Made by a program: the position numbers and the translations under genes. This document shows positions 1,972 through 64,000 of a stretch of DNA of 64,000 nt, one piece after another. The stretch is from Agarophyton chilense (taxonomy: Eukaryota > Rhodophyta > Florideophyceae > Gracilariales > Gracilariaceae). Every line of letters begins with the position of its first letter. Positions within the stretch are counted from its first letter, which is position 1. The stretch is from contig JARGXX010000096.1 of the NCBI GenBank assembly GCA_030374765.1, positions 496,001-560,000 of the forward strand, written 5' to 3'. The notes below the pieces were generated by a model that was not told the origin of the DNA, ran no database searches, and saw only the letters and a list, made by a program, of their open reading frames with translations.

Positions 1972-1989
1972 AGCTATGTTTGTTTGTTT

Positions 1990-2508
1990 CTAGTCGTCGA
2001 ACAGTCCACCGGTGGGAATGACGCCCGTGGCAACAGCCCACGCCAGAATGAGCAACGGCGTCAGTAGCGTGATGGCGCCAATGATGAGCCACACGTCCAC
2101 GCGACCCTGATTCTGTTCCGCCCACGCGTCGGCAAAGCTCTGTGACTTTTGTATAGCGGCCGCACGCGTCACCTTCTTTTCATTACGTCCGCGGCGCGGT
2201 CCCAACCCGGTACCCACCTCGGGTGCGCCCACCATATCGCCGGCGCGCGCGTCCGCGTACACATCTGACGTCACATCGGCCTTATTTCGTACTAAGCGTC
2301 GCTTGGATGGCTCGCTATTTGTGACTGGCAATCTTCTGGCGGCTGTGCTCTGCTGCTTGTCTTTGGGGTCGTTGTTGCCGGTCGCGTCGCGCTCGCACAT
2401 GTGTGCCGGGGCGTGTGTGCGCGCGGTGGTGCGACGCAAGCGCACCGGCGCGACGGTGATGAACGCTGTGTGTGGCGGCCTGTTCATCATCATCATCATC
2501 ATCATCAT
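1990..2508 (-). CDS. Small predicted plastid membrane protein, function unknown
   Basis: A 172-residue protein. It opens with eight consecutive methionines, followed by a basic, Ala/Thr-rich region compatible with a transit peptide. The C-terminus holds one clear membrane span of about 25 residues (VWLIIGAITLLTPLLILAWA) ending in an acidic GGLFDD tail. The single C-terminal span and basic leader suggest a thylakoid or envelope protein, but I do not recognise the family. It is convergent with the octanoyltransferase (19 bp between stops) and divergent from the TPM gene, with about 220 bp between the two starts. Confidence 0.65.
   Translation of the reverse strand: MMMMMMMMNRPPHTAFITVAPVRLRRTTARTHAPAHMCERDATGNNDPKDKQQSTAARRLPVTNSEPSKRRLVRNKADVTSDVYADARAGDMVGAPEVGTGLGPRRGRNEKKVTRAAAIQKSQSFADAWAEQNQGRVDVWLIIGAITLLTPLLILAWAVATGVIPTGGLFDD
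2485..2508 (-). repeat. (ATG)8 microsatellite forming the start codon region
   Basis: Eight perfect CAT units on the plus strand read as eight in-frame ATG codons at the 5' end of the small membrane-protein gene. Any of them could be used as the start. Confidence 0.85.
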
Positions 2509-2729
2509 GGTTGGTAGTGAAACGGGCGTGTGCTAAGCGGGGGTCTCGGGCACAATGGCGAGCACGACGTAAGAGTTCATGGGCAACGCAAAGTATCGAA
2601 GACAGACGCGCAGCACGCGCAGCCGGCTTGCGGCGCGCGCGCCGCCAAGTGTGCCAATGCGCGCGCGCCACTGTGCGAGCGCAATCTCGCAAAAAGCGCA
2701 AAGCGCTGGCTCAGCGCCGCCTCTCCGCG

Positions 2730-3548
2730 ATGGAGACGCATCGCCGCGTCGTCAACATGGAGCTGACCAAGGGGACGGCGTTCGTGGGCGCGCTACCGCT
2801 CTCGCTACGACCGCGACGCGTCGCGTCGTCGCTGCAAACGCGTCGCGTCGCGTCTCGTATGGCAACGCCGCCGCCATCGACAGTGTACATGCGACGCGCC
2901 GCGGAAAAGGCGCTGGGCGTCGTGGCCGGCGGCGCCGTCGCGTGGGCGTGCTTGAGTGCGGCGCTGGCCCAAGTGCCCGTCGTTCGTCCCGAAGCGCTGC
3001 TCTTCGACGAGGGCGCCTACATTCAGAAGAGTAACGCGCAACTGTTCACCACTGCCATGCGCAACGTGCGCGACAAACAAGGTTACACTGTGCGCTTCGC
3101 CATGGTTAATAGCATTCCCTTCGTGCAGACGCCCGATGAGTTTGCCGCAGAGCTCGCGCAGCAGTGGCAGCTGTCGGATTCCGATGTGCTCTTCGTGGCC
3201 AGTCCCAAACTGGCGCGCGCCGGCGTGTTTGTTGGCGATGCTGCCGCAACCCGTCTCACCCATGATATTGCCGAGAGCGTGGCCAACGAGACGTTTGCGC
3301 TGGCCGCAGGCGAAGAGCGCTACGGCGCCGCCGTGCTGGACGTGAGCAACCGCCTTATCGCCGTGCTCAGCGGCGAGGACGACCCTGGACCGCCCGTCGT
3401 CAAGATCGACGAAGTGGTGCAGAACTACAAGACAAAGGCCGAGACGTCCGCCGCCCGTAACAAGTACATTGCCGTCGTGGTCGTCGTGCTGGTCATTAGC
3501 TTTGTGGCCCCGCTGTTGCAGACTTATTGGTATGTCCGCGATGATTGA
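2730..3548 (+). CDS. TPM-domain protein, predicted thylakoid lumen/membrane (TLP18.3-like)
   Basis: TPM-domain proteins of this type (TLP18.3 relatives) act in photosystem II repair; that role is family knowledge. The start at 2730 is preferred: the open frame extends upstream to 2472, but that part is low-complexity and overlaps the divergent gene. The 272-residue product has an Arg-rich transit peptide. A hydrophobic segment ending in an Ala-X-Ala-type lumenal cleavage site (AALAQ) follows. The TPM domain starts at LLFDEGAYI and includes a SDSDVLFVAS core. A C-terminal membrane span (VVVVVLVISFVAPLLQTYW) ends the protein. Targeting is predicted from composition only. Confidence 0.8.
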   Translation: METHRRVVNMELTKGTAFVGALPLSLRPRRVASSLQTRRVASRMATPPPSTVYMRRAAEKALGVVAGGAVAWACLSAALAQVPVVRPEALLFDEGAYIQKSNAQLFTTAMRNVRDKQGYTVRFAMVNSIPFVQTPDEFAAELAQQWQLSDSDVLFVASPKLARAGVFVGDAAATRLTHDIAESVANETFALAAGEERYGAAVLDVSNRLIAVLSGEDDPGPPVVKIDEVVQNYKTKAETSAARNKYIAVVVVVLVISFVAPLLQTYWYVRDD

Positions 3549-40726: not shown

Positions 40727-43422
40727 AGGTGGAAGAGAACACGTCACAACCAGTTCTGGTTTGTCATATGAAGTACAATAACTATAAAGTACGTGCTTCA
40801 ATGTGTTTCTCCGATCGCCTTGCGGTTCCGGTCACGTGCGTATTGGATACGGGGGCCGGCCCAAACGTGCTGAACTCCCGCGTCATACCTGAGGCGGTAC
40901 TTCGGAACTTGAGCCGAGCTCCCGACAACAACCCGCTGGTGGATGTAAATGAGCGCCCATTAAACCTTCGAGGTATGCTCACCACTGTGGTGCAGCTCGG
41001 AAACCTCAAGGTAAGACTGCAATTCTTTGTTGTCGACCGTTTACCGACAGACTGCCTACTAGGTACGAACTTCATTGACAGACATGTCAAAGCAATCCTT
41101 CCTGATTCCCATACAGTCGCCCTACGTTAGGGGGGACGAATTGCCATTTTAGGTAATACGGAAACCAAACGGGGATGGTTCGTCAAACTGAAGAAGAGGA
41201 TATCCACCGAAACGGTCTCCAACAAAGTGCGCCTTACCAAAACAGGTTTTTATCCCGCCAATGCACCAAATATTGGTACCGGTGTCGTGTGCGACCCCCG
41301 GGCTGGTCATATTACAAAACCATCCGAGGTTAGCACATCGACACCTCACCTTGATGGCCAACGGGATTGTCGACAACATCCCAAATCAACCCTTTAAGGT
41401 GTGTCTCAGCAACTTCAGCAGTCATGACGTGAAGTTGCCAAAAAATACCAATGTTGGCATCGCACTACCGGCACCACAAGGGGTCTTCACCGTAGCTCAC
41501 ACTGATCTCGGCGAGGTCGCCCTCGATAAGGAAGGGGGTGCGCAAATGCTTCCACAAACACAAAGGTATCGATAAATACCAACTTGGGAGCAAAGGTAAC
41601 CGATAAGGCATCGCTAGACAAAGAAGAGAAACCGGACCCTGAGAGGCAGTGGCAAGATACAGTCCAGATTGGTGAAGAAAACGGCCAACTGCGGGGCCGT
41701 ATTATCGACCTTCTGGAGGAGTTCGAAACCATGTGGTCAGGCCATCTGGGCCAAATTAAGGCCACACAGTATCGCATCGAGCTCTTCCCTGGCTAGAAGC
41801 CGATTTACCAGCAACCATACCGAGCAGGTCCAAAGGAGAGAGAGATAGAACTCAAAGAAGTGAATCGAATGCTCCAAGAAGGGGTAATTGAATCAGCGAA
41901 CTCAGATTGGGCTAGTCCCGTGGTTCTGGTTCAGAAGAAAGGGGATAACCGGATGAGGCTCTGTGTGGAATACAGGAGGCTCAATAGCGTGACCGTCCGG
42001 GATTCGTACCCAATACCTAGAATGGATGAGTACATCGACTCCTTGGGAGATGCGCAGATATTTACCACGTTTGATGCCAATTGTGGTTATTTGCAGGTAC
42101 CCGTACGTGAGGAAGATCGAGACAAAAATACCTTCACGTGCCTTGCAGGTTTGCTTCGCTTCACGCTGATTCCTTTCGGATTACGCAATGCTCCAGCCCC
42201 CATTCAAAGGGCGCTGGACATCATCCTTTCGAAGGTTAAATGGACAACCGCCTTGGTACACATTGATGATGTAATCATCTATTCCGGATCGGTAGAAGAG
42301 CACTTTGCACACGTACGAACCGTACTAATCCTCCTAGCTGAGGCGGGGGTGACGCTGAAGCTACGCAAATGCGTCTTCTTTACCAGAACGGTTGAATACC
42401 TGGGACACATCATAGGCCCTGGTACCCTAGAGGTTGCGCCAAGCAACATTAGAGCCGTACAGGAGGTCAAGTTGCCACGATCCTGGACAGACGTACGATC
42501 TTTTATAGGTTTATGTAAAGTCTATCGTCGCTTCGTGAAGGGATTCGCGAAAATAGCGGCTCCCCTCAACAAGAAGCTCCAGAACGGTGAACCTGAACGG
42601 TTTGAGAATCTATCGAACGAAGAAATGGACACCTTTGAGGAATTGAAACGAGCACTGTGGTTGCCGCCAATCTTAGCGTTACCGAAAACAGGTCTACCAT
42701 ACACACTGGATACAGATGCATCCTATGCCCAAATTGGTTGTTGTCTCATGCAGGAGCAGCACAACGGAGACAAATTACCTATAGGATTCTGGAGCCGCGC
42801 TATGAATGCGGCGGAGCGGAACTACACGTTAACTGAGAAGGAATGTCTAGAAGTAGTGTGGAGCATGTTGATGCTCCGTCCATACCTTTATGGTGAGCGC
42901 TTTACGTTGCGCACGGACCATGACGCCTTAAGGTGGATCTTCGGACTGGCAGATACGTCTGGTAGACTTGCCTGTTGGAGGTTGAGACTGTCGGAGTTTG
43001 AATACGACGTACAGTACCGTCCATGTATCAAGCACAACATAGCTGACGCTATGTCACGCTTAAAAACCTCAGGGTTAGAGACAGAACCGGTGGACGATGA
43101 TATCCCTTGCTTTTTGGTGTCATCAAACCAAAATGGTACCGGCGAACACCTAGAAGGATGTCGGGACTTACCTGAAGAAGGTGGTTTGCGGAACGTCGAC
43201 ATGGCAACGCAGATACTGACCCTAGAGGAAACGAACGTCATGCCCGTAACCCGAGAGGAATTTCTACGAGAACCGGCCCATGCATCAAGGATCGCGACAA
43301 CAACAACTGCTACAACAGGGGTCGTCGTGGTTACTACGCTCGCGACAGCTGTAGTATTCTACTATGTCGGGGAATCCGATAGGTTTGTTTTTCGCGAAGT
43401 CGCGGTTGTAACTCATGAGTGA
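40657..43422 (+). pseudogene. Protease-RT-RNase H of element A
   Basis: The protease frame (40657-41130) carries the retropepsin site CVLDTGAGPN. After TAG 41128 and two frame changes (near 41280 and 41575), the RT frame continues, with a further TAG at 41794. RT landmarks are WASPVVLVQKK, RLCVEYRRLN, PFGLRNAP and the catalytic box ALVHIDDVIIYS, in which the usual Tyr of the YxDD motif is His. RNase H follows, with TLDTDASYAQIG, YTLTEKECLEVVW and TDHDALRWI, so its acidic residues are present. The frame ends at 43422 without an integrase. Confidence 0.8.
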
Positions 43423-44067
43423 GTGTTATCATTAGCATTGTGATATGAAGCAGCATCCCGCATAGGATGCCTAGAGGCAGAATGTCTTAGTGGAACACAT
43501 GGCGTCATGGGTCGAGTGGCTTACCACGGCGCGCGCAGAGTTGCGACCCTTCCTAGGGGAATGCCATATTGGCAACGGCGCATGTAGTGGCGATCCACGT
43601 GGCTGGTTTTACTACCCTTTGTAGCTAGACGTCCATTAGGGACCATACCCATACAGTGGTTTGGCTAAGTGGCTGACCACTCGGTATTATTTATATATTT
43701 ATTTGGGCACTCACCCTGTCACACAGTATATAGTGTACTAGAGGTGAGCGCCGACTCCAAGTAAAGGAGACAACATGGGCATCATGACTATTCTTTTACT
43801 CGCTTAGGATTCCTTAACCGGAGATCCGGACGAGCTATAATAGATAGTCAGCCCCCAACCACTTCACGAGCCGTCTCGTACCTACATTCCATCAACGTTT
43901 TACAGTTGCGCTGTTCACCCTCGCTGGCGAGTAGTGGCCTTACACCCCACTTCGAGCTCGCTGGTGTTGTAGCTCTACCACCCCTTTTCCTTCGCCGCAA
44001 GCGACCCATCGGCATTCCGAACGCTTTCGCAGGTGTCTGCTCTCTCCGTTAGAGCGGATACTACAAG

Positions 44068-46973: not shown

Positions 46974-47982
46974 GTAACGAGATATCGTGGGAAGAATACT
47001 GCAGGGGAAACTTGGAAAGTAGGAATACTTTAATTGCACTGTACTACTGCACACTTGTACGTTGTGACCACAAAGTAATTATTTATTTTTAAAAAAATTG
47101 TGGCACACCACAATGTAGATATTACAGTACAGTAGCTTCTCTGCCTCCTGGCTCGCTGAGGGGCGCTTGTCCCTTGGTCAGGAAGGCATAGGCCAGTCAA
47201 CAATCTCCTTACCACCTTCTTGGTGTTCCCTAGGAATCCTAAAGTCGCTATTGACTAAAGATCACTTATACCATTTGATCTAATCGCCGTGAGCTACATC
47301 TCTTCTTTCGAGGATATCCTCCCTTATCCGCGGTGTACCTCTTTCTTTATTGTTTGTTTAGCGTGTTGTTTTTGTTGTTTTGTTGTTCTTTTTGTAAGTG
47401 CACAAGGCTTGTTGAGCCAATCTCATGAGCCCTACGTACCGCCATACCCAGAATCTTCCCTAATGTCCACAGGCACCGTTCTTCTTTTTCTCAGCCACCC
47501 CTCACCATTCTCTTTCACTCACCTTCTTCCTTCTTTTAAAAACAGTCGCTCACAAGGCGAAGCCCTCTTCCAACGGTAATTCATGTGGAAATCCACCCGA
47601 TATCGATAACCTAACAGTCTCTCATGGAACGCCACATAAACTGATCTTTCGACAAATAACACTTGGAAAGAAGTACACTGTTGTGTGTAACTTTTTCTCC
47701 TGAATCGTAACTTTTGTGTCTCACACGTCATTGGATCTTCGTTGGATTTGTGTACTAGTTACTTCGATCAGTCAGCAGAAGCTTGAACCCTCAACACGGA
47801 ATCTGTTTTTTCAGAAGACATTCGGATCCGGATTTATCCATTCGCTAAGATAATCGATCACTCCGAATTTTATTGGTGAAGACTTGTGAATCGTCGTTTG
47901 TTATCGTCATCGATTTTGGTTGTATCTAATGCGATATCTATTGATGTCACTGTTTGAAATTGTGATACGTGTTCACATTTTG
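46974..47982. other. Spacer between elements B and C, including probable C leader
   Basis: No supported gene. It includes two close palindromes, TTGTG-AC-CACAA (47062-47073) and TTGTGG-CACA-CCACAA (47098-47113), flanked by weakly inverted CTGTACT/AGTACAG sequence. This is possibly a small MITE of about 110 bp (47036-47142). The right part is A/T-rich and probably the decayed LTR of element C. Confidence 0.4.
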
Positions 47983-48013
47983 TGGTCTCTATTACCGGTT
48001 AGTATTGGATCAC

Positions 48014-50154
48014 GATGCCTACGAGAAGCGGCTCGAGTAAGGATAAGACCTAGTCAGCGGCACCCCGCTTAGCCACGTCTATAGAGGCTGGGAACTGCAT
48101 ACATCGTCAGGCGAGAAGCAAGTCTAGATCGACATAAAGCGCTCGCACACCCTTGGAGGTAGCGACGACTGTAGCTCAAGAGGATACTACCTCGTCTATA
48201 CGTGATGTTACGGAAGGTACAACCCTGCGAGCTTAATTGAAGCAACTCCGTGCGCAACCTGCAACGCAGAAGTTCCGTCTAGAGCAAATGAAAAGTCAAG
48301 TTAAGATCGTCTTTGGAAACGCTTCAAGGGCAGTAGATTGCCCTGAAGAACCGAAAATTGGATACAGATCAGATGGCCGATACAGTTAGGACAATATAAA
48401 AAGATCTCAATCATTTGATAGAAGCGCGGAGAAATTCTACTCAGCTTTACCAGAATTACCAGTCACTGTTGCGGAGGTTCTCTCCAGTGTCAACCATCGC
48501 TGACAGCCATTGGAAACTATGGGAAACGCACCGTTGTCAATTCCGCATCCGGATGAGGGGGTGCAATTGATGATTACCGAAGTGCAGTTGCGCAAGCATA
48601 AGCAAAAGGAAGAGAAGTCTTCCTAGAATATTTCGATATCAAACAAGGTCACAAGGAAGAGTGACAGTTAAGAAAAATCCGATAGTTTGGAGGATCGTTA
48701 TTGTAACTCGGGCGACTCCAAAGAAAACAGCTCATCAGAGGATGATTGTTCGAGCGAAGAGGACACTAGTAGATCGAGGTGAAAGAAGACCGGACCAAGA
48801 CTGTCGTGTCGCGAGAAGGGAATGGCTTACGGAGGCCTGGAACAGCTTCCATGCCCCGATTCACTTTATCTGAGGATTATGAACTACCGCAGTTATCGGT
48901 TAGAAGTGCTAAAGAGCAAAGTTCCTGGTCCCTTAATGGATAAAGTTAGGGATCACATTAAGCGGTTGAAGACTGAACTCGATGGTCTTACTTTTTCAGG
49001 GAACGATGCTAGACTTGCTTTCAATTTTTAAATCAATTGCTTGCTGAAGCCAACAATTTAAAAATGAGAGAATTTCAAGCATTCGTAACTCTTCGACATA
49101 TTCTAACTGGATTGGCTTTAGAGCAATATCGCGCTGTGAGTGGTTCAGTTACGGTTGATGAAGGTGGATTCACCAGTTGGGAAGAAGCTGTGAAGAATCT
49201 CCTGCGTAGTTATGCAACGTCAATCTCAGTTCGAGAAACTATCCTGAATCTCAGGGATTTTGTCCAGAATTCTGGTGAAAAAGAAGTTGAATACAGTTCA
49301 ATGTTGAACAATGCAGCAACCTGCTGTAGAAATGTGCATTCTATCGATGATGAGTTTACGCTATTCGTAGATGGTTGGATTCGACTATCAATTGACTAGT
49401 AGCCCTTCGCAGGTATCAGCTTGAGTGGGTTAGCTCTTTGGAATTAGTGCAGTATGCACAGGCTGAAGGTCAAGCCGTTCGAGCTTGTCGCGGTTGGAAA
49501 CGTCACTTAGAATTATATTTTCTTGCAAAGGGAGATCCCAAGCACGCTCTGAACCATAGCAAATTATTGTATCTGGGATCGCCGGAAGAGCCGCGCGTTT
49601 CGACGCACACACCATATCAAACAAGCCAGATAGTGGTGAAAGCACTTCATTATCTGGACGACCCAGAAAGTTCGGTACCTAATGCGAAGCTGCCGACTAC
49701 TAGCTCCTCCAAGGAGAATGATATGATTTCTATGAAGCGGCTCGGATACCCTTACAGAGCTCGTGCGATGGTACCGCCCGCAGGAGAATTCACTTCAAAA
49801 AAGCCAGAATGGGTCGATAGCCGTGGATAGAATCAGGCTCAGCTGAGAATGAACAGGGATGGTCTGATATACTACAGTTGCTACTGAAGATACCATCTGT
49901 CATCAGAATGTACCCTATTCGCCAGGGAGTTATATTGATTTGTCTTGAATTATGAAGCCCTTTCAGAGGCAGAGTACACCCGTGTACTCGGTCAGTTGTA
50001 TTGGAAAGCCAAAGCGTGGGGTATTTCGGATCATTCCCGAGGGGTCACATTGGAATTCCGAACACTGAAGCATCACAGGCCGCTGCCTTGCGAGATAAAT
50101 GAAATTCCAAGATGGCGAAGGAGAACCCCGCTAGTTCGCAAAATTAAATGAGGG
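48014..50154 (+). pseudogene. gag of element C
   Basis: Decayed frames match element B block by block: NYRSYRLEVLKSK/DHIKRLK (48879-49010), LTGLALEQYR to ETILNLRDFVQ (about 49100-49270), the YSSMLNNAA block and LVQYAQAEGQA (49438 on). NYEALSEAEYTRV and YWKAKAWG follow (49945-50010). The zinc knuckle at about 49865-49910 has lost its first Cys (now Tyr) and carries an internal TGA, but keeps the last Cys. Many stops and frame changes; more A/T-rich and older-looking than A or B. Confidence 0.6.
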
Positions 50155-50274
50155 AGCCCTCACCGAGTCGTTTGCGATCGAGCTCATAGCACCGACCGGG
50201 GAACTGACTTGGTGCCGCTTCCGGGAACCTAAACGGAAGGTCGTTCTGAGAACAGAAAGGTCTTTGGACATCAT

Positions 50275-50277
50275 CAA
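50275..50277 (+). other. Left target-site duplication CAA
   Basis: CAA immediately before the left terminal inverted repeat, repeated at 63471-63473 immediately after the right one. A 3-bp duplication is the rule for CACTA-superfamily insertions. Confidence 0.6.
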
Positions 50278-50295
50278 CCGTATAAGAAATAATTC
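50278..50295 (+). repeat. Left terminal inverted repeat of the CACTA-like element
   Basis: CCGTATAAGAAATAATTC. Subterminal GAGCGCA occurs twice, at 50304-50310 and 50317-50323, mirroring the TGCACTY motifs near the right end. Confidence 0.65.
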
Positions 50296-50301
50296 TAAAA
50301 A

Positions 50302-50754
50302 TTGAGCGCAGATGGAGAGCGCATTCGAGTTGTGAAAACTTTTGAATTTGACTATTTTTCAAATGATACTATTTTACAAACTAGGATTGCAATAGGATGC
50401 TTTAATGACCAATTTATCATCAAAATGGACTCAAAGCGAAATGAATCCGACTTCCAAAGTGACATCTTCTTCTTGTCCGGAATCAAAGATTTTCGATGTG
50501 TTTCATTGCGTCATCAGTGTGCTCTCCAAATCTTGCAAACCCGCTCCAAAAACATTCTGAATGACGGGAGATATTTTGCCGCATTTGAGCCTCCGCTTGC
50601 CTTCCAATCTTACCGCAGGACACAACCTGTATGGAAGAATTCGTCTCCAAATGACCTCAAGTTGCACTGCCGTGCTTCAAAACGCTGCCCCAACAATGAA
50701 AACCATCGTTTACGAGAAGCATCCATTGGATATACAATTCTGGCGGATCAATAA
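50302..50754 (+). other. Open frame near the left end, doubtful
   Basis: A 150-codon frame without a recognisable domain, beginning only 24 bp inside the terminal repeat, so there is hardly space for a promoter. It may be chance or part of a captured sequence. Confidence 0.2.
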
Positions 50755-51475
50755 AGCGAATTATCAGCCCTTGTCGCACTTCGACATCCACACGCTCTCA
50801 CATTCTTCAAAACGGGGCCATAGGCATATTGACGTATGCCACAATACGACATCCATATGCTCTCAGACACTCTTCCTGGTAGCCACTGACGCACCTTAAC
50901 CTCCACCTGCCCACTTACTATACCATGTGGCATCACGTTGTGTACACCCTTCGTCGCCGAAAAGCTCTCGCTTGCTCCCATTACTCCCAGCATCCCAAGC
51001 TCTATTGCCCAATCTGCCACCCTTTTGCAACTGCTTCAAATTACACAGCTGGAACAAGACTGCTTAGAACGACATTTCCAAATAATTTTTAACACGGTTC
51101 TTCGTGCTCTTATGCGTCAACCGCAACGCAAAGGTTCTGACATACCATCTGCATCCAAGATCCTTCAGAATCACATTCAAAGCCTTCATCTCTGATCCAG
51201 AAGTCCCCACAGCACGCGGTTCACATTGTCCACTGATGTTTCTTCTTTGCTGAGAAAACACTCTGATGTTAAATTGTCATCTATGAAATAGAATCTTCGC
51301 CGAACTCCACTACGTGACTGTTGAGAAAGAACACTGTGACTGACAACAATGATCAGTCTCGAAACGATGGAGAGGTCCTTCACAGTTTTCGACGCAAAAG
51401 TATTGGTGTACGGGCACTTATTGTACATTTGAGGCTGGGAGCCGATCTCGAGACCCGCGGCCCATTGTATTGCAG

Positions 51476-53506
51476 CTACTTCACACTTTTTCTGACAGTG
51501 ATTTCATTATGCAGAATGGTCAATGACTGTCGTATCCACTCCTTACTCAAGGAGCACATGTATATGGAAATATTACACTGCAGTAAGTCCTTCATTTTCC
51601 ATCTTAGTAGCCTCATTTGAGTTCTCGCTAGAACGAAATTTAATCTAATAAAAAGTACCGGGATGAATTCTTGCCTTTGTATCCTGCACCGCCTTCTGCC
51701 ATTAAAAAACCCTGATGGAGATCTTAAAGTAACTCGATCGATGTTTTTCATAATGTCAAGGGCTTCTGAGAACATCAAACCATCGTAATTGCGCATAAAG
51801 TACCCTTTCATATACGAAGTAAGATATTTGTCGAGATTCGCAATGCTGCCGACCCAATATGTATGCCCCTGACCTTTGCGTTAATACCCTCTTCCACGTA
51901 TTAGGTCTTTCAAACTATACGTGCCATCAATTCTTAACGACACAAAAAAGAAGGGCTTGTATCCTTCCATAAATGTGGCATCATTAAGTAGAGAAGCCGC
52001 TACACGGTTCCTGTAGTTCATGTGCCCCAAAATCCATCCAATGTATAGTTCCATCCAGCATTGCGAGTACGCTACAGGTTGATTATACTCAAGAACTCTT
52101 TCTGCATGGAGAAGAATCAAATGAAGCATATATTTGTACAAATGAATTTGCTGATGGTCGCCATTGACGTAGAATCGCTCAATCTGACGATATAAACAAA
52201 GTGTCAATTGTTGCAATCTGTCCACATCACTTTTTTTGAGCGTCAGACGCCAAACAATTTCGACAATCTTCACAAACATTTGCTAACCTGATAGATATGT
52301 CGTCGGTAGATGCCCATCAAGTACAACGAGACTTCAAGACAAAATGAATGACTTAACCTCTGCTGATTTCCATTGTTAAAACCCACTTAGCGGTTTTGGA
52401 TGAATTCCGATCTAGCTAGGAATTCCTCTTCCGAAACATTAAAGCTCCTGATCAATTTTTCTTATTGAAGACTTGCGGAATGAGTAAGTTCTTGCTGGTG
52501 ACAGCCACAAGCGAATCAGACCTTTGCCGATGTGGTAAAACAAGGGCATTGTTTCAATCGGAAAAGACTTACAAGGGATTAGATAAGGGACAGAAAGAAG
52601 AACTGAATCTCTAGTAGGTCCAGAGTCTTTTTGCATATCAGATCTTTTTTCCCTTCAAACAGTTCTAGTCTCGTGATGGGTTGAACAGTTTCACAAACCG
52701 AACGTAATGAAAGACGAGATGGGTCAAAGAGTGTACGACTTCCACCAGATTTTCGTATCCTGCTTGGAATATAGTGATGTTGGTTTGACACCGACCAAAC
52801 ACCTTCGATTTTGCAAAAATGGCAGGGTAGTTTTTCATTATGGCCTTTCAATCTACCAAATTTCTTCACATCTGGAAGATCCTCAGTAAAACATAACAGA
52901 TGGACTCGAAGCTTTTGCGATGTTCCATTGTAGAACATAAACTCCATCCGAACGCCATGTTTGTGGAATGATTGGATTTATTCGACAAGAGAGGCGATGA
53001 GTGAATGAAGGATTGCAGGCTCAGTCGGTTCAGGGATAAACGTGAATGTTAGTACGATTTTGACCAGATATCGCTTGCTGGCTTGAAGGTTCAAAAGCAT
53101 TGGAGCAACTGCCCACACATGAAATGTTCGTTTCTTGAACCCCTGGAAACCATCAGTGGATAGCGATAGAAACAAATCATTCTTAATTCCATCCCTTCCA
53201 CCAGAGGCAGATGCAATATGATCAAATGCTTCGGAGTCCAAAATTCCGTATTCGCACCCCGTTTTATGTGTGTGCTTCCTCCAGTTGTAACCAAGAGTAC
53301 AAATTTTTGCACCGTGCTTTGCCAGTTAACGTACTTATTAGTCTTGGCTTCAAAGATATCCATGAAAAAGATGACGCGGACTGGATTTCAGGGGCTGGTC
53401 GAAATTCACAGCAAACAGAGCAATGATAAAGGGACTGGTTGTAACAACACATGTTTCCGGGACAAATCGGAAATGTTCGCATTGCTCCTTCAATTCCTGA
53501 TCTCAA
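51476..53506 (-). pseudogene. tnp2-type (CACTA) transposase, broken or multi-exon
   Basis: Successive minus-strand frames give the tnp2 landmarks in order. First (53506-53264) is a Cys-rich N-terminal block, CPGNMCCYN and YHCSVCCEFR, followed by FSWISLKPRL. Next are LFLSLSTDGFQGFKKR and VWAVAPMLLNL (53241-52978). Then come HLLCFTEDLPDVKKF and the Cys/His block GHNEKLPCHFCKIEG (52947-52579). Last is a His/Glu-containing C-terminal region with YMLHLILLH and MELYIGWILGHM (52279-51881), with a further frame to 51476. The order and the DGF and GHN...CHFC motifs are those of transposase family tnp2. Frame changes between blocks may be introns or decay. Confidence 0.65.
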
Positions 53507-54949
53507 GTTAGTGCGAGCGATAATTGTTTTCCAATAATTAGACGGGGCTTTGTTAAATTCAGAATGTCATCCGTAGCTTCTTGCGTTAAGCTAGGCTTGA
53601 AAACAAGTCTATCCAGTGTCTGTTTTTCGTAGCCTACAACGAGAACTCGTCGTCATTGGCACTATTATGAAGGAGGGTACTCTATTTCATCAACTTCAAG
53701 GTTCTCTGCTGTTTACTGTACTCTAGAATGGCCTTCCACTATGTTAATGCTTTTCATAGAGTTATGGTTCACCTCAGAGCAGACTGAGCGATCTGAATTG
53801 CAATTGAACAGTTTGAAGTGATCGTGAAGGCCGTTTGCATCGATGAGCAGTATATCAGGTTTAGGCTCATCAGATCCGATTAGGTCGGCCTCTTGGCAAA
53901 TTCTCTCCTTATCAGGAGTAGAATTATCTCAAAAAACGCCGTCTTCATGAACATTACCGTAGTCGGGATTTTCTTTGTATTTTTTGCTTGATTTCGATGG
54001 ATCAACAGCGAAATTCTCATGTATTGGAAGAGGATCTTGTCGACATTTCTTCGGATTTCCTTTTGATATCAAGCTTGGAGGTGACCTCTGCCCAGGACTT
54101 CAATTCATGGGAACTCTATTATGTGTGTTGCATTCATGTAGCACAGCCTCGCTTTCAAAACTTGGTTCAGCCATCGTTCCAACGATGGTGGAGTTCCCTT
54201 CCGCGAGAGGCAATACATTTTAGCCACTCGCAGGGGCCCTGGCTTGAAGTCGATGGGCTGTTACATGACTCGAATGAGACGGTGATGGTGAACCATAAGT
54301 ATTTGAATAGCAATCTTCATTTCTAAGGAACCCAAGAGATTGTTGAACACGAGATTCGTTTTTCGTACGGAAACCCATGCTTCCATCCTCTGTCGGTCCC
54401 AAGGGCAGGTCTGGTACAATCCCACGTCTTCTCCGGAAGATTTTTGCTTTCCTTCTGTGCTTCAACTTAGTGGTCCGGCTCGATGCCTTTCCCTGAGGAT
54501 AGCAAATGAAGAAAAACTCTGGAAGACATATATACTTTGGGTGCATTCTAATAATTCTATTAATTGGCAGTAGACTTGGAAACTGAGTGGTCGGGGATAA
54601 AGAGTATGATCAAAAGGGAAACCGTTGTTCTAGGAGATTCGATCTCTTCTCCTGTCTGATTGAAATCATTGAGAATGTTGCTCAGGGAATAAAACGCTGG
54701 CAATATCTCAGAGGTTGGTTTTCAAATGTGTATTCAATTTGCTTCAATACACGAAAAAAATGGGAGTGTGCGTCCATTTATACAGACCGACTGTGACCCA
54801 AATTCTAATGAACCTCTGTTCAGATCTGAGACTAGTAAATATTTTCCCTCTTCTGTATTCGAAACGACTCATGCGTATGTACATGTCTCGTGAAGACTGT
54901 TAGGCCCCACTTGAAAGACTTCTCTCTGAACCCAAAAACTAAATAATCC
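53507..54949. other. Interior of CACTA-like element, no supported gene
   Basis: About 1.4 kb with only short frames on both strands and no domain recognised. It would contain the upstream region of the minus-strand transposase. Confidence 0.4.
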
Positions 54950-57469
54950 GTACCTGGATGGAGGATGTTGGAAAGGTCACGAGGCGGCTCGACGGCCTAA
55001 AGCCGTCCTTTCGACTTCTGCCAATACCCAGTCCAGTAAGAGGCAAAGACTAAGTGCGAGAGCCAATTTGACAGTGCTAGTGAGAGCAGATGTTGATTTC
55101 TTAAATGCATTGTTGCCTGAAGAAGAAGGGCAATACATCCAATTTCGCGAAGGTGTCTCTGACAACAAACAAAACTCACATGCAAAAAATTGCTCTGGGA
55201 ATGATCATGATACAAAAAGTCGGGGTTGACTTAGGCAGAGCTAGCCTGGAGCACCGCTTCAAGAAAGACCCGTGTTATGCGGTGTGAAGCTGATGTACGA
55301 GCAGATGCAGAGAGTAGATACTTTCTTGTATACGGATAGAGTAGTAACCTTTGATGTATCAGATGGCTTGCAGAACAGTAGATGGAATCAAAAGGGCTTC
55401 ATTCCCAAACTCCAAGGGCCCACAACGTGTAACAGCGTACTCTTCCACCTCCTTCAGTTGAACAAGAGAATATGTACTGTGTGGAAACTGAGACAGAGCG
55501 TCTACAAACCAACGACACTCCGTTTAATGCACATATAGTGCAACAACTATCATCTCTACTGCCAGTTGTTGTTGCTGATCCGGTGCAAACGTCGCATTCA
55601 TCTCAGGTTCAATGTCTTCAAAACAATCTAAGAGAGAATCTACCTCGACAACTGGCAACCGATTCGCGAGATGTAACGCAAGATGTCACGTCTAGAGTTG
55701 AAACACGGTCTTGAAATGTTTCGAAAGGATATGAGATTGGCTACAATTCATCACCACTATCTTCTTCCTTAGCTCATGCTGGAGCTCTACATCTTTCATT
55801 GCATCTCATGAAAGTTGTGAAAAATGGATTATCTCCGAGATCAAATACCCTAAAAACTGAAACTGGGAATTTTTTGAGCAGAAGTGAGGCAGTGGGGGAT
55901 AAGGAGTTACGCATACCCTCATCTTCCGTGGTATTCGTTCCGGCTCAGCCTTCATCCGAATCGGATGACAAATTAAACAATCCATCCCATACCCGAAATG
56001 ATTTGTCATCAGTTGAGAGTGGGGCTCGAAATCCTTCCAGAGAAATATCCATATCGCGTAGAGAGAGGTTTCACACAGCACGTCCCACCGCAGAGAGTTG
56101 AGCGCAATTCTATAGGCAGAACCAGACCTCAACCCCTTTTCTCAAAAATAGGGATGGGTTGGATTTGGCTGCACATGCACGACAAGATGGTAGCGGCATG
56201 CGAGCGAGGAAGTATGGAATCACGCTTCGTAGACAGATAGAAGCTCCAATTGATAGCTCTCCTGGTAATGCAGAACCACATTCGATAGCATTTGTGGAAG
56301 TACCCCGGCCTCGAAATAAAGTGAATATCCACAATAAACACTAAGCGGCATGTAATCAACAAGATGCGTTGAGCACAAAAGTGACAGCTTCTTGTCTACC
56401 ACGTCACCGAAAACACACTAACTCACTTACTCTTTGCAAATTGAACAATATAATGAGTGATATGGTCACAGAAAACACACTAACTCACTTACTCTTTGCA
56501 AATTGAACAATATAATGAGTGATATGGTCACAGAAAACACACTAACTCACTTACTCTTTGCAAATTGAACAATATAATGAGTGATATGGTCACAGAATTC
56601 GAGAATGATTCTGTCCAAGGCACCGTTCGTAACAGGGGTAACGATGGGCATCATGTTGGAGGTGCTCGAAGTTGGGGCCGTCCTAGAAGTTCTGGACGTT
56701 CTCAAGATCGCGGATGTGCTCGAGGTCACGGCCGTGCTAAATGTCGCAGAAGAAAGAGCAATATAGTTGGAAACCGAGGTCAAAGAGTGGGGCTTGGACG
56801 TCGAACTACAACCTAGGATTATTTGACAAAGGTTTTTGACTCGGAGGAGAATTTTATACCTTTTTCGGTTGTTGTGCGCCGAAAAGCAGTCAACAAAACT
56901 CTCCAGTTGGGATTTATCACCGCGTATTCATATAATTAACCTTAATAGATGGGTATATGGAGTTTGGGTAGTTCCAAATCTCATAGACTCCAATTAATTA
57001 TACATTTCCCATGTTATTCATATGTACCTCATATATTACTAAAGCTTCCTTTTTCAATGCATTGGATTTTTCATAATGTTTAAAAGCGACAGATTGTTCC
57101 GGTTCAATTAGCAATGTAGATCAACAAAAACGTAGGAAACCAAGCAGGCGCACATATTTTGCAGAAATCTAGGTCGATCCCAACTATGAAACGGGTGCCG
57201 TTGCAGAAAACGTAAAAGAAACTCCTGACGATGTCGACGCTGCCCTTGTCGTCGTCATAGCACACGTCACAAAATCAGCATCCAACAAACTCCCAAACAA
57301 TGAGCCTCACGCACGTCTCCTGCCACATTCAAACTTAGTTAAACAATTCATTGAAATGCGTGAAAGGTCTGTTCATAGTACCACGAAAAATCCGAACAGC
57401 AATATCGGCTTCAGGAGAAATGACCCATATGACCCCGAGTTTGAGCGGCAGAGGAACGCTTATAACTGA
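54950..57469 (+). pseudogene. Unrecognised plus-strand ORF cluster inside the CACTA-like element
   Basis: Co-oriented open stretches: 54961-55230 (Lys/Arg-rich, then acidic, ending DHDTKSRG); 55472-55714; and 55799-56344 in one frame with a single TGA at 56099. An Arg/Gly-rich, Cys-containing stretch at 56580-56816 and a 97-codon frame from 57173 to 57469 with no ATG (VDPNYETG to ERQRNAYN) follow. The Ser-, Arg- and Gly-rich composition would suit a DNA-binding accessory protein. CACTA elements usually have a second gene (TNPA type), so that is the leading idea, but no homology is visible. Splicing or decay could explain the breaks. Confidence 0.35.
56403..56596 (+). repeat. 62-bp tandem repeat, about 3.1 copies
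   Basis: Units starting at 56410, 56472 and 56534 each contain AAAACACACTAACTCACTTA followed by CTCTTTGCAAATTGAACAAT and AATGAGTGATATGGTCAC. The copies are virtually identical, which implies recent amplification. The unit itself has a short palindromic theme (CTCACTTA versus TGAGTGA). Confidence 0.9.
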
Positions 57470-59336
57470 AGAACACAGCTATTCAATAACCATCAAACGC
57501 GTGAGATTTGCAATACGATGACATGGAAGAAAAGTACGGAGGCAACACGTTTTAATATATCGTTTACGCTTCCCCCTGTCTGCATATATTTATACTGCTT
57601 ACACCAGCAGAAAGAAGCACATCACGGAGGGCCAAGTTAGGTGACGTGTAACGACCGCCATAGCGGACTTCGAAAGCGATGCGCTTCATCCCGACAAGTA
57701 AACAGAATGTGCCGAACATCAACCTCTGCAGAAGCTGAGTAGATACGGACGGCCGCTTGTAGGGCACATCGGCTGCCAAACTCGTGGAACTTTCAATCTT
57801 TTGAGTACATCTGTTTGTCTCTCAGCACACGGGCTGCTAAAAGTACGACAACCATTGATCCATAATTCTTGTTAATGACGAGTGGCGTACCGTCACGTTA
57901 GCCATTGAGAGGTAAAAACGTGTCCGCAAGCTCCGAAATGACTGTCATCCCAGGCGTGAAATCGAAAGTTAGCGCATGGTTGACCGATTACGTGTCGCTG
58001 CTTAAGCTATGCGAACATGGGCAGCGTGTGCCTATATTCTACTATTTCAAAGCAGCCTAAACAAAAATAAAGATATAGCTGTGCTTCAGATAGCGCAGTG
58101 ATGGTGCTACACTGCAGAATCCAAACAGATTGCTTCTGTGTCGTTTGTAGAAAACTAAGTTTCCGTCCTTGCAAATCATACTTAGAATATGGTGACGATA
58201 GAAACTGTAGTTTGGAGCTGCTCATCTCTTATGCGGATACGTCATGTCACAACTACATATGATACCTTCTTCGTGTATGCATGGTAACATTGAGAATGAG
58301 TTTGTACGATTGGAATGCATCCTAAGTTCAAACGTGATTGATGGAGTACCAGAACGCTGAAGAAGTTAACATTTTAAACCATTTTCTTTCGCTAGGTATC
58401 AAAGTGTTCAAGTACACTGGAAGCGAGGACCGGCCGAGGACAAGATATTTCCATGACAGTGTTCACATTTTCTGTGATTCTTATTCAAGTCCGTATCTGG
58501 AAGCTGACACTTAAAAAGGTCTCGTCTAATTCTCCCCGGCACGTGCTGGAAGTAATTTTCTTGGGACAGCAACCTCAAAGGTTCTCTAACACAGAAGAGC
58601 AAAGAGAAAGCCAAACGTGATTGAGCAAGACAAAGGACAAGGTGCAGTTTGAGCGCAAAAAATCGATACCCTCCGCTAAAACGTAAACGTCGTTTCTGAG
58701 ATCACGCGAGCCATCTAACGAACGGTTGGCCGACTCGCGATATACAAGGCGGAACAAATTAAACTAGTCTTAATCGCTGGTATAACTTCTCAATTCGTTA
58801 ATAGTTTTCTTGATTCTCTGTATAATTAGATTAGTAGTCTTTCTTTGATGGAAAAGAAATTCTTGCACAGCACTGGATTCCCGGGGTCCTTTAGCATATA
58901 GAAGGTTACTGACGTAGACTGCAAATTGTTGCCCACATCTAAATTTGGAACAAATTTGCTCCTCTATTTCGATGGGAACTAGAAGTGCGGCAAATGCACC
59001 TCTCTGGTTTGAGTCCCATATATGACTCCATCCAAGGAAGTACTGATTTTCGATATAAATTAAGTGCTTTGCAGAGCGGATCTGATGAATATAAGCTCTG
59101 TGAATTCCGTGATCATAATATTCATTCCTCCGAAAAATTAATCCAGGCCTCTTCTTAATGAGTTGTGTAGATGATTCAATGATTCGACGCTAAACTTGAA
59201 CGCTTAAGCCACTATCCTGAATTTGGGCTTCTTCCCACGCTAGTACAAAGGTCTCTTCTAATCTTTGGTGAAGTGAAATTTTCAAGTGATCTGCCGCCTG
59301 ACGAATCCATCGACCTTCAAAGTTGGTCAAGATATC
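57470..59336. other. Interior of CACTA-like element, no supported gene
   Basis: Short minus-strand frames (57564-57779, 58007-58225, 58408-58757) have no recognised domain. One contains a CEHCHG motif that might be part of a zinc-binding segment. Confidence 0.35.
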
Positions 59337-62300
59337 TCACGCTGTCATTTCGGTCATGTGAGCATTTATATTATGCCACGGCTCTGTCGGACCCGATTCA
59401 GCAGTGACACCCAATTCACAGGCTTGATAGAAGTCAGACGGTGCGTGGAAACAATCAAGTGTTCGAAACAGGCTGTCGTTTATGTTTTCATAGCGACCGT
59501 CTTTGAAATACGGTCCGCCTACCCAAGCTTCTAATCTATTCTTGCCAATATCTGAATCCATGCGTTAAGAACGCCATGAAGGTTTTTTGATGATGTTTGA
59601 ACATGATGGCATCATTGAAGTCGGTAAAGGGACCATGTACAGGGCTTTGCCAGCCCACTTTGATAAAATTGACTATGGTGTTGTCAATATAGACCACACC
59701 TTCTTGAACATGTTTACCCATGATGAATTGGTAAAGTGGATATCTGGCGTATTCGTCGCATACAATCACGCAGACAGTGACGACTTCCTCGGCCTTCTGC
59801 TTGAGCATCTCTCCTAGCGTTAGTCCGTTCCATTTGGTAACATCGTAGCTCATATGCATGGCAAGATAATACCAAACAGCCCATTCTTTGATATAAATGA
59901 GCTCGCTTTCCTCCAAAAGTGGACCAGAAGACTGGAAGCTAGAGCGTGAAGCAACTTCTCCAAACAGGGAAACAGTACTGAAAGAATACTGGAAGAAGCT
60001 CTTGTCATTTGCGCCATGTTCAGGACTTCAGGCCGTGATCCACAAAGCACTAAAGGAGTCCCTAAGGACGGGAACTTGCAACTGCAGAGAAACGTATACC
60101 TCGTTCTGAGCTTCAGCAGAATCTTTTTTTCGACGAAGAGATGGATTATTTCCCGTAAGCAAATTCACGGTAGCCCTTCGTAGCCATGATGTCACAAAGT
60201 CCAGCGATATATGGAGAGCAGATAACTCGCTCGACACTTGTACACCCTTAATCGAAATTTCCAGAAGCTCTTTTACTTGTTGTAGAAGCTTCGAAACGTC
60301 AGAACGGGCAGCATGCTCCAATATTGATGGATCTGCAGACACAACATAAAACGATACCAATGGAAATAGAACACGAGAGTTAAGTTCTAGGAGATGTAAG
60401 GTCTCCATGAATCGAAAATATGTGCAAAAAGCTCTCAGAATGACTGTAAAGTGCTTCGGATATCTCTTCCCACCAGACAAGACGCACACACGAATGATTT
60501 CGTACCCACTAGTTCTCAAGGAGTTTAGCGTCTCACGTATCGAAGGGATTTGGGGATCAGGCGGATCGATCTCATAACTGCATAGAATGTCATAGCCTCG
60601 TTCTTCCTGACCAGGAGGTCCGTCTCTGAAAGCCGTTTGCCTTTCTTCATACAAATCGTGCTCGTCAGCCACCGTCTTTGGTGCATCTGGGTTGCCCAAG
60701 TTGAAAACATGAACCAAATACTTGCATGTCGGCAACAAGACGTTACGGCGAAGTTTATCAGTTTTTTCACGAAGAAATTTGCCCGGATTGAAGAATCCTT
60801 GCTAGGTACAGAGCATCACGGTCTTAGCATCAACTGCCTTTGGGGCAGTGGCATGCGAAATTATACCAGTATTAAGATCTACCTTGGAACCCTTGGCTAT
60901 AGGACGAGATATTATGATGCATGCTGCTTGCTCATACACAATATTCGCACAGCACCGGTGATACCTCATTTTCAGGTCCCTTCACGAGAAACGCTAAAAA
61001 TATTTTGGGAGACTGTTGCTCAGAAAGAGCTTTAAAAGAAAAAAGCGTGTCAACAAGCTGCAGCAGCATACACTCAGGTTTTTCTGTTTGACCTCTTTAA
61101 CGTCGAGTACAGACATGACAGACGATATGCTTGCCTCCATAAGCAGCAACTGGTCCTTTTCACGCAACTTGAGGTTAAGTAACTTGTTCACGGCATAATA
61201 GCATAGCAAATTTGCAAACCGACCTATATGGGCGTTGTTGGAACGATATAGCCGTTGTTAAACTTCATGCAGTGAATGACACGCCCGGAACCGTATCGAG
61301 CCAGACGTACTGAGATTGTCGATTAAATCGTCAGCGTTTCAATGCAGGTATCGAGTCTTGAGTGCTCTGTTGAGTACAACAACAACGATACTCTCAATAC
61401 ATGAATCTTTGGCACGAGCACATCTAATTCATTCCATTCGGTGATTGTTTCATACGCTTGTCTTTTGAGGGCGGCTATTTGTTTCACCACACCCACCGAG
61501 ACGTTTTCTGATGCGACATGACATATAGAATCTAGAGCGAGGTATATTATATCTATGCTATTTCGGCAAGCTCTTTTGCCTCTGACAAAGTCCACAGCAT
61601 TCCAGCTTTGACTCGCAGAATCGGGGAACACGATCATTACTTCGTAGAGCCTAGCAGTATTTATATATAATGCACATGGAGCATCCTGAGAAATCAGACG
61701 CACCAACCGCGAGAGTGTAAAAAATGCATTCACCTCTGGCAGAATTCGATAAATGATACGAAATGCGCCATACATCATTCCATTATTTTTCTACGGGCGA
61801 CTCTGAACGACACATCATATCAAGCATATTCAAGCTCTTTGTACTGTTACACGTCATTTTGAAAGGACAACGTTTAACACAAAAGAAACGAAGAAAGGTC
61901 ACAGCGAAGCTGTTTCTAGAAATTTGACCCTCCACCGATGTGAAGAAGTTGTAGACTGTTTTTCGTAACACATAGGAGGGGCATTACAGTGCCTCCGCCA
62001 TTAAGTAAACAAAAACTGCGCCAAGTTCGCTATCATTGTTCGACAGTTCTTCCAGAGGGCAATTGAATGCTAGAAATGAGCGCCCAAAATGAGCGGTGCT
62101 AAGTTTCGAGATCCTCTCGGAGAATTTTGTTGTGAACTCTTTAGCCTTCTCATCTACATATTTCAAATGTTGCTATTTAAACCAAGCTTCTGTTTGAGGT
62201 ATAAACGCGTCTGTAGGCGGAACGAGGCTGCACAGGAGTGGAGAAAGAAGCAGAGTGGTTCGTACGACAAAATTGAAAAGTCCGAAAAAGGCTTCACGAA

Positions 62301-63062
62301 AGGTTTTGTTCGGATTGACTTCACCTTCTTCAACGAAAGCTGACGGCAAGGTTCTTCCTACATCGAAAAGTGCATCTAAAAATTCGTATCGTGCTTCATC
62401 GCGTGGGTTTAAAACCAGCATGGAGCAGGCATGAGCAACAATCATGGAGAACTTCACGTTTGGTGAGGCCCATTGCAGAAAAGATCGTATGCACTATACA
62501 GTGGTAAAAAATATTGGAGTTGGCAGTGTTGTGGAAGTTGTCAGCTGCAGACGTGATGAACGGAAGGGTGGTTGAAAGAGTGAGAGCCATTGCATGGCGA
62601 AGTTCATGTAGGCGCTTATGATTCATTGAGGAGTTAAATGTATAGATATCATTCGAGATATGAGTGAATACTCTACAGCCAATGTGGGCTTGCATCGGAA
62701 TGACATCGTTAATGAAGTTTTTATAGCGCTGGGGCCACTTTCGTACAGCTAATGCGGCCAGAGAGGAAAAGGCCTTATTGGTATGCTACCAGGAACACAG
62801 CGAACTTTTGTCACAGTTATAGCAGCGCAAATTGAAGATCATGCAGACCATATCGATCTGGCAAGTTGGTAAATGGAGGAAGAACTAGTTGATCAAGAAG
62901 ATGGAAATCATGCATATTTTTCGCCGGACTCACGGGAGACTGAGGTTTGGGGTGAAGCAAGCGATCGGCAAGAGCAAGCGCTGAATGCGGTTCAAGCGGA
63001 GGGGAGATGTCGCTAAGTGCGGCTTCGGCTTGCTTGATGTGCGAAGGGCTGCCTTGGTGCAA
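59337..63062 (-). pseudogene. Exportin-5/HASTY-like multi-exon gene carried by the CACTA-like element
   Basis: A chain of minus-strand coding blocks. Five GT-AG introns join them with reading frame kept: 62933-62786 (GTGAGT...GTAG), 62457-62376, 61794-61686, 61073-60994 and 60964-60802. The blocks are helical and Leu-rich. Resemblance to exportin-5/HASTY HEAT repeats is seen in VRKWPQRYKNFINDV with NDIYTFN...HKRLHELRHA, and in FLQWASPNVKFSMI (candidate exon or intron 2 region). It is also seen in the region LNSLRTSGYEII to SRVLFPLVSFY (about 60590-60370). C-terminal frames run to 59337. Two in-frame stops (62173 and 61984) are unexplained: further introns or mutations. The family call is from memory of the fold pattern and is tentative. 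Confidence 0.45.
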
Positions 63063-63372
63063 CTGACGCAGCGAGTTCTTCGCTAGATTACAGACTACAC
63101 AATTTTAACGTGATCACAGAAAATAAAAAAACGGTAAGAGGGTTACAGGATGGAGGGATGCGGGGAACTCTTGAAGTTTGTATGATGTGGTTTCTAAAAG
63201 ACGAAGGTACAGCAGTACAAAGGTACTTAAAGTGTCTATTGGGCGCAGAAATGTTTTTAAAAAAAAGGTTTAGGAAAGTGAGTTTGTCAGTTTGTCAGTA
63301 GCAGAAGCCACACCCTCCATCTTCGCACAGTTTTGTGCCTACTGAACCCATCGCTGAAAATGTCTCGACGCC

Positions 63373-63433
63373 ATGCACTTCGGTTGCACTCTAATTATCC
63401 TCCATGTGATCCAATTGTGTCACATTGCACTTC
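63373..63433 (+). repeat. Subterminal TGCACTY motifs of the CACTA-like element
   Basis: ATGCACTTC (63373), TTGCACTCT (63384) and TTGCACTTC (63425) lie within 100 bp of the right end; on the minus strand they read GARGTGCA/GAGTGCA. The left end has GAGCGCA twice. Subterminal repeats bind transposition proteins in known CACTA elements. Confidence 0.45.
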
Positions 63434-63451
63434 AACTACCCTCCAAAAAAA

Positions 63452-63470
63452 GAAAACTTTTCTTGTAGGG
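63452..63470 (-). repeat. Right terminal inverted repeat of the CACTA-like element
   Basis: Plus strand GAAAACTTTTCTTGTAGGG; read inward it begins CCCTACAAGAAAAG, matching the left end and close to the CACTA consensus terminus. Confidence 0.65.
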
Positions 63471-64000
63471 CAAACGAGTACAACTCGACTGTACTTTAGA
63501 ACATCTTTGGAGACGATATATGTGTCCAACAAGAAATGTTGACTACTTCATGGTCATGGTCGGTAGAAAGTACGATGTCTATGCCGTTGCCGGCTTCTCT
63601 CAATGACTATTGCCACGCAGACTCGACGTCATGTATACCGGAGCCGATACAAAGTTTATCAGAATGTCTCATCTGCGAACCGACGAGCGAGCCCGAATCC
63701 AAATGGCCAAGCCACCGGATATTCGAGACGCAAACATGAGACTGGTAGAATATCTTGTAACTATACGACTTATCGTTCAGTGAGAGAAACATGTTTTCAT
63801 GTTATCATTTATTCTTTGTGTAATGTTAGCAGCACCAGTTGTTCTTCGATGTGACTATTGCGACAAATTTGTGGGACCAATTTGTCTGAAGAATCTGGAG
63901 GTGGAATTGGATGACAGAACAACCGTACCTATTGTGAGCAAACCGCTGCGATACCCTGTTTCAGCAGTAACGATATCACCTCCACTTTAAAATGAAGCTT
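63471..64000 (+). mobile_element. Retrotransposon C, right part (protease), runs off the window
   Basis: From CAAACGAGTACA onward the sequence parallels element B from about 46575: the CTTTGGAGACGATAT block, TACTTCATGGTCATGG, then the protease region. Frames end in VVLRCDYCDKFVGPICLKNL, which extends beyond the point where element B is truncated. The aspartic active-site region (63615-63665) is broken by stops. The rest of the element would lie beyond 64000. Confidence 0.65.

Follow-up and report, generated by a model that had tools for sequence, protein, structure and literature searches.

The 64,000-nucleotide stretch of Agarophyton chilense DNA analysed here (the window; C96:496001-560000 of an assembly of ~80 Mb (79.8 Mb) in 135 contigs) contains a CACTA/EnSpm-like transposable element of 13.2 kb, at positions 50278-63470, which sits within an older retroelement and carries long remnants of an exportin gene and of a phospholipase D (PLD) gene besides a transposase. 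In what follows C-numbers denote contigs, L-numbers individual loci (L049 lies on C88, L050 on C22 and L052 on C79) and W the window copy of the element. A sequence-only reading had recognised at 59337-63062 an intron-rich exportin-5/HASTY-like gene, and had raised the idea that a transposon owning a small-RNA exporter might influence the silencing of transposons. It is very probable, in our judgement, that we are looking at a decayed, transposase-bearing CACTA/EnSpm-like copy, whose cargo was captured by an ancestor and whose exportin, already frameshifted, has been carried as dead freight. The exportin homology is real, the earlier gene structure is wrong, and the tempting picture of a transposon owning a small-RNA exporter has to be corrected.

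When ten minus-strand fragments were scanned against Pfam, one gave an Xpo1 match (in 62399-62785, E=4.4e-6, over the cut-off), and the remaining nine, PLD pieces included, gave no match or only unrelated sub-threshold ones. A profile search of the genome returned four Xpo1 loci, and the closest intact relative found is a gene on C105, whose frame runs open for 1254 codons between stops (1220 when counted from the ATG) and which matches Xpo1 at E=2.4e-11 (Pfam). With it the genome holds an intact, intronless exportin outside the element, though one that the Exportin-5 profile does not match. A tblastn search with this protein spans 63083-59911 nearly end to end, and blastn aligns nt 41-3239 of C105 with window 63073-59912 in a single piece of 3214 columns at 66.6% nucleotide identity, interrupted by 31 indels, 25 of them frame-breaking; the window copy has 12 in-frame stops. 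The five GT-AG junctions that had been proposed to link separate coding blocks do not survive this alignment. Gaps between successive tblastn blocks measure 40, -17, -58, -7 and 5 nt and the largest insertion confined to the window is 5 nt (3199 donor nt against 3162 in the window); because the blocks abut, overlap or lie 40 nt apart, there is no room for introns. Each of the five frame changes is spanned by 1-21 GT..AG pairs per length class (25-160 nt), about the level of shuffled sequence (means 6.0-16.6). Introns in the window exportin are rejected on these grounds: the coding blocks are frame changes in one continuous pseudogene, not exons, and the supposedly intron-rich gene is a frameshifted version of a donor that is a single open frame. 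A functional, intron-bearing exportin-5 gene inside the transposon could appeal to the Xpo1 domain match, but the lack of intron room, the intronless donor, the 12 stops and 25 frame breaks, the chance-level GT-AG pairs and the missing Exportin-5 profile match make it scarcely credible. The accompanying claim of an otherwise intron-poor genome is plausible, since a number of genes with Pfam domains run through the window as long frames without interruption, among them one for the large subunit of an RNA polymerase (1358 codons); for four Gracilaria male genomes the available part of one report gives 0.37-0.56 introns per gene (PMC12502185). An oomycete origin, first considered because of a likeness of the PLD, was set aside, as the genome gave no Chitin_synth_2 match but nine matches to chlorophyll-binding proteins, one of which has 7y5e, a red-algal structure, as its best PDB match. 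Four extra exportin copies, ~99% identical and matching from CDS nt 905 onward, lie at C105:1.55-1.64 Mb (L016, L017, L019, L020) and are recent 5'-truncated duplications near the gene.

The family assignment of the noted blocks therefore stands, on the Xpo1 match and tblastn, while the subclass does not. The Xpo1 domain, the hallmark of Xpo1-domain karyopherins, is present in both the window fragment and the C105 gene, and this domain, with the 1220-codon length of the C105 gene, is the likeness to Exportin-5/HASTY; the difference is that the C105 gene gives no match to the Exportin-5 profile PF19273 at E<=1. The same profile found no match genome-wide, in a search run without a positive control, and a PDB search returned 36 sequences up to E=10, comprising 34 exportin-1 entries and two capsid-protein chance matches, with no exportin-5 among them. 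Exportin-5 identity thus draws no support from the Pfam, genome-wide PF19273 or PDB searches. The portion of PMC12026948 available to us reports an exportin-5 homologue from the red seaweed Asparagopsis, so the A. chilense genome may possess one, though the C105 gene is not identified as such.

Other copies of the element also carry the exportin. A DNA search with window 58500-63500 gave at least 29 matches including itself, all counts of copies being lower bounds, and exportin of the element type occurs in at least ten places (the window, C80, C115, L008-L013 and L015). The 5' breakpoint falls at donor nt 40-42 in W, C80, C115, L008, L009, L010, L011 and L012, and the alignment starts at nt 31 in L013 and nt 101 in L015; seven copies form an L008-type subfamily that has kept exportin nt ~40-810. 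Each of the ten exportin-bearing copies has 2 to 38 frame-breaking indels and 1 to 15 in-frame stops, no open exportin frame was found among them, and a +1 shift near donor nt 311 and a -1 shift near donor nt 615 are present in all ten. Because these two frameshifts are common to every copy, the exportin was dead before the family spread, and exportin function cannot be assigned to any copy examined.

The manner in which the copies have diverged agrees with this. Synonymous divergence (dS) and omega were estimated by NG86, with host genes (on C105) and element copies compared within one assembly. Between W and C80 the exportin differences are 0.210/0.224/0.217 at codon positions 1/2/3, and omega is 0.83 (0.68-0.97) for W-C80, 0.80 (0.63-1.00) for W-C115 and 0.75 (0.63-0.93) for C80-C115, these three long copies differing by dS 0.28-0.30; pairs of copies compared over the N-terminal stretch give omega 0.53-0.93, some intervals lying below 1. 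Neutral simulation returned NG86 omega of 0.52-0.82 and never below 0.52, values under 1 arising because transitions were favoured in the simulation. The exportin copies are thus diverging near-neutrally, and differences in the transposase region are likewise about equal at the three codon positions (five comparisons). A nuclear export factor presently owned by the transposon is contradicted by the two frameshifts in ten of ten copies and by this near-neutral divergence, and with no intact exportin frame the suggested influence on silencing has no protein product to rest on, although small RNAs from the cargo could still exert one.

The exportin does not travel alone. Homology switches from exportin to PLD at 59912/59908, so that 59337-59908, the low ~570 bases of the interval once read as exportin, are phospholipase D. 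The window PLD shows 72.6% nucleotide identity to an intact C105 PLD and has 5 stops and one frame-breaking indel; the C105 donor has the C2 domain, PLD motifs and PLD_C domain (Pfam), whereas the C2 domain and C-terminal part are absent from the window copy, which falls short of the plant-type C2 phospholipase D set. A tblastn stretch linking PLD residues 96-391 to exportin sequence was read as a chance extension. The C80 copy has the same exportin/PLD junction, but its PLD reaches the natural stop, with ~99 nt missing inside, and is followed by a DHX15-like piece (C80:225643-225984, 47% identical), so that exportin, PLD and DHX15 are seen together there, in what we take to be the ancestral order. 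A copy on C22, adjoining its transposase (719929-726103), has a DHX15/PRP43 piece at L067:1215-1568 on the minus strand (PDB, E=1.6e-21), with no exportin or PLD among the matches listed there. A fourth gene is represented in five of the seven L008-type copies (L008, L009, L012, L013, L015), whose Peripla_BP_2-type fragments are ~90-94% identical in DNA to a C105 gene, the Pfam match being over the cut-off in L015 and under it in L008; none was seen in the stretches examined of L010 and L011. In a copy on C95 (L032 / L055) a 157-nt piece, near the transposase, is all that is kept of the PLD cargo.

We propose that the family ancestor would have taken up pieces of host-type genes, at the DNA level, into the stretch that separates its transposase from its right end, namely most of the exportin, then the rear two thirds of PLD, then a DHX15/PRP43 helicase fragment. 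Capture would probably have proceeded by aberrant excision and repair, as has been proposed for Pack-CACTA elements. The exportin would have been frameshifted already in the last common ancestor of the ten known copies, after which the cargo would have multiplied as dead freight, each copy decaying near-neutrally. In the window copy a deletion would additionally have removed the helicase piece together with the last part of PLD, and one subfamily would have kept the start of the exportin alone, later gaining part of a host gene of the periplasmic-binding-protein-like type. The window exportin has the look of debris that hitchhiked with the transposon, not of a functioning export factor that the transposon owns.

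That the exportin lies inside a DNA transposon was correctly supposed, and is borne out by defined ends, a target duplication and a transposase. The left and right terminal inverted repeats are identical at 10 of 12 bases. A 3-bp target-site duplication is typical of CACTA elements; here CAA stands on both sides, and the unoccupied relative L052, where the matches to window 64942-63471 and 50280-47098 (72-75% identity) are contiguous, is without the additional 3 bp. A TNP2-type transposase, the other feature expected of CACTA/EnSpm, is established through copy L049, whose open frame matches PF02992 (Transposase_21) at E=3.6e-8, over the cut-off. The transposase and PLD assignments derive from better-kept or intact relatives, which match Pfam as the window fragments by themselves do not.

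A number of observations weigh against this account. Neither the window's own transposase fragments nor its PLD fragments have a Pfam match of their own, and the empty site is a relative at a different locus, at the identity just given, from the window. The terminal inverted repeats are present and conserved among copies but begin CCCTA and not CACTA; the CAAGAAA that follows fits plant CACTA ends. In the C80 copy, as in the L008-type copies, just one of the two ends was located. Finally, the exportin-PLD junction keeps its reading frame in W and C80 alike (window 59539-60027, minus strand), which chance would give in one case out of three, but which a once-expressed fusion would give too.

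The divergence of the cargo from the host genes is of a different kind from that among copies. Between element and C105, exportin shows dS 1.12-1.34 with omega 0.19-0.25, PLD dS 1.43-2.08 with omega 0.08-0.12, and DHX15 dS 1.14-1.19 with omega 0.16-0.18 (88 and 58 codons). When the C105 exportin is compared with the window copy, the third position shows 1.94 times the differences of positions 1 and 2, whereas the ratio in neutral simulation was at most 1.19. Changes common to the copies amount, per site at positions 1/2/3, to 0.117/0.066/0.287 in exportin and 0.072/0.044/0.324 in PLD, and changes that differ among copies show no third-position concentration. Composition bias was considered as the cause of the low omega and found no support, since neutral simulation never goes so low and the shared third-position changes run both ways (exportin, 94 GC-to-AT and 73 AT-to-GC; PLD, 55 and 57); in GC content at third codon positions the C105 genes were unremarkable among 14 genes or parts. 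By rough arithmetic ~0.1-0.2 per silent site would be left for neutral decay before the burst, so that the bulk of the silent divergence would have arisen under selection, in gene lineages distinct from that of the host since capture. Direct origin from the ancestors of the C105 genes, followed by decay, would make amino-acid and silent changes more alike, so the exportin, PLD and DHX15 pieces probably derive from diverged homologues and not from direct ancestors of the present C105 genes, the source probably being horizontal transfer or lost haplotypes or paralogues. The Peripla_BP_2 piece serves as an internal control: its dS from the C105 gene is 0.08-0.10 in five of five copies and 0.09-0.17 among copies, as would be expected of a recent local capture.

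One way to place selection on the cargo is to suppose that a working exportin, or exportin-PLD fusion, was long maintained inside the transposon and died shortly before the burst. The strong constraint on the stem, evident in the shared changes at the three codon positions of both genes, would follow from this, as would the nearly full-length exportin, the in-frame junction and the natural PLD stop in C80. Yet a truncated PLD with no C2 domain and a partial DHX15 helicase are equally constrained, not one of the ten copies has an open exportin frame, and two frameshifts were already common to all of them, and we regard such a past as improbable.

An explanation to which we give a little less than an even chance is that the element acquired its exportin, PLD and DHX15 pieces while in a different species or lineage, that horizontal transfer (or hybridisation) then brought it into this genome, and that the fourth gene was captured here later. 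It accounts for three genes with dS of at least 1.1 accumulated under constraint while the long exportin copies differ by so little, for host-versus-element omega values of 0.08-0.25 that lie below the simulated neutral minimum, and for the low dS of the Peripla_BP_2 control, and the bidirectional third-position changes leave composition drift as no explanation. Transfer alone would not predict that the C105 counterparts of all four captured genes (L047, L048, L070, L071) lie on a contig of 2.17 of 79.8 Mb (2.7% of the assembly), at 0.86 Mb (PLD), 1.32 Mb (DHX15), 1.49 Mb (exportin) and 2.11 Mb (Peripla_BP_2). Also against it is the mutual divergence of the C22 and C80 DHX15 pieces (dS 0.70, omega 0.37, 56 codons), which exceeds that of the other cargo.

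The clustering on C105, where three of the four counterparts fall within ~0.63 Mb, is what would be expected if the source lay instead within the same species, in paralogues, haplotypes or sex-linked gametologues that had diverged and are now lost or absent from the assembly, and the 5'-truncated, ~99% identical extra exportins nearby on C105 are in keeping with it. Old red-algal gametologues with saturated KS are described in the accessible text of PMC12502185, which also names NAD kinase as a conserved Gracilaria gametologue family. A search with this marker gave two matches, on C88 and C121, and none on C105, so that in a test of one marker the contig found no support as a sex chromosome; moreover, three separate losses of paralogues would be required. 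We consider a lost source within the species unlikely, if still a serious contender. The clustering may reflect captures made locally on a single chromosome, linkage that was conserved in the source, or sex-linked haplotypes that have diverged. The cargo might be a record of the element's past, with exportin, PLD and DHX15 taken from a different lineage (or the opposite haplotype) and a further gene added after arrival, an idea we entertain with slightly more doubt than conviction.

The structure of the element invites comparison with the Pack-CACTA/Pack-TYPE elements of Arabidopsis, rice and maize, in which, as far as the sections available of PMC8903248 and PMC13317346 describe them, CACTA-type elements have captured coding pieces from several loci. 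The likeness lies in the CACTA-type ends, the coding fragments from multiple loci and the multiplication of the cargo, and coding DNA of host genes does lie between the ends here (exportin and PLD in the window, DHX15 and Peripla_BP_2 in other copies). Pack-TYPE elements are defined in those sections as non-autonomous and without transposase, whereas the A. chilense element has a decayed transposase between the same ends; it also differs in its red-algal host and in older cargo that has diverged from the host genes. The soybean CACTA element Tgm-Express similarly mobilises host gene fragments, but its fragments are, by the title of PMC1947982, alternatively spliced, while the donor here has no introns and what looked like introns are frameshifts. 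Fungal EnSpm and other DNA transposons with a TET/JBP dioxygenase offer a further parallel, as EnSpm-type elements with a captured gene that may affect silencing; that gene, on the partial text of PMC12730594, is transposon-encoded and proposed to serve escape from silencing, whereas the A. chilense exportin lacks an intact frame in ten copies. Among the titles listed for CACTA host-gene capture, red algae with CACTA, exportin with CACTA, and horizontal transposon transfer in red algae, none concerned such a red-algal case, and no papers came up on CACTA gene capture in oomycetes. This is another gene-capturing CACTA element, one whose older cargo carries an unusual hint that its source was foreign or has been lost, and it shows a CACTA-like element that bears a transposase capturing host genes repeatedly in a red alga. 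When multiple captured pieces are each set against their host gene, captures that took place in this lineage can be told apart from those that took place elsewhere and, if our interpretation is true, dead cargo could reveal a transposon's earlier hosts, which in our own judgement transposase trees alone often leave open.

Table 1. Features of the element and its insertion site (window positions).
Feature	Position	Strand	Basis
Older retroelement, gag-like, host of the insertion	47098..50277	+	resumes at 63471; contiguous in L052
Left target-site duplication copy, CAA	50275..50277	.	alignment to unoccupied relative L052 (C79), where the additional 3 bp are missing
Left terminal inverted repeat CCGTATAAGAAA	50278..50289	+	homologous ends in copies L049, L050
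Element's own left part	50290..52297	-	common to copies C88 (L049), C22 (L050)
Decayed TNP2-type (Transposase_21) transposase segment	52298..53187	-	64-65% identity to L049 open frame
Element's own sequence between transposase and cargo	53188..58701	-	common to copies C22, C88 (part), C80
Probable deletion scar	58702..58731	.	C80 copy has remainder of PLD and DHX15-like fragment here
Phospholipase D pseudogene	58732..59908	-	nt 837-2012 of donor's 862-codon stop-to-stop frame
Exportin pseudogene	59912..63073	-	donor CDS nt 41-3239 of 3660
Subterminal region	63074..63470	-	common to L021-L025, which show no exportin in the stretch examined
Right terminal inverted repeat CCCTACAAGAAA	63459..63470	-	identical end, differing flanks in window, L006, L008-L012
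Right target-site duplication copy, CAA	63471..63473	.	joining the flanks leaves 3 bp extra relative to L052

Within the element's own sequence, Pfam scans of the left-part fragments 51479-51880 and 51884-52282 gave no match, nor did the edge fragment 53094-53387, the sole part of 53188-58701 scanned. At five further places (L021-L025) the subterminal part stands alone in the stretch examined, with a right-end flank common to the five among themselves; there the subterminal 400 bp adjoins further repeats that hold long frames on the minus strand, and of these frames three were scanned without a Pfam match and one of the three without a PDB match. In the surrounding retroelement a Retrotrans_gag match falls at 49013-49396 (Pfam, E=1.4e-4, just under the cut-off). 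Elsewhere in the window, 41797-43422 on the plus strand is a retroelement with reverse transcriptase and RNase H domains, and a 94% identical match to window 43350-44067 lies at L067:329-1045, inside the C22 element, where the DHX15 piece stands on one side of it and that element's own sequence on the other.

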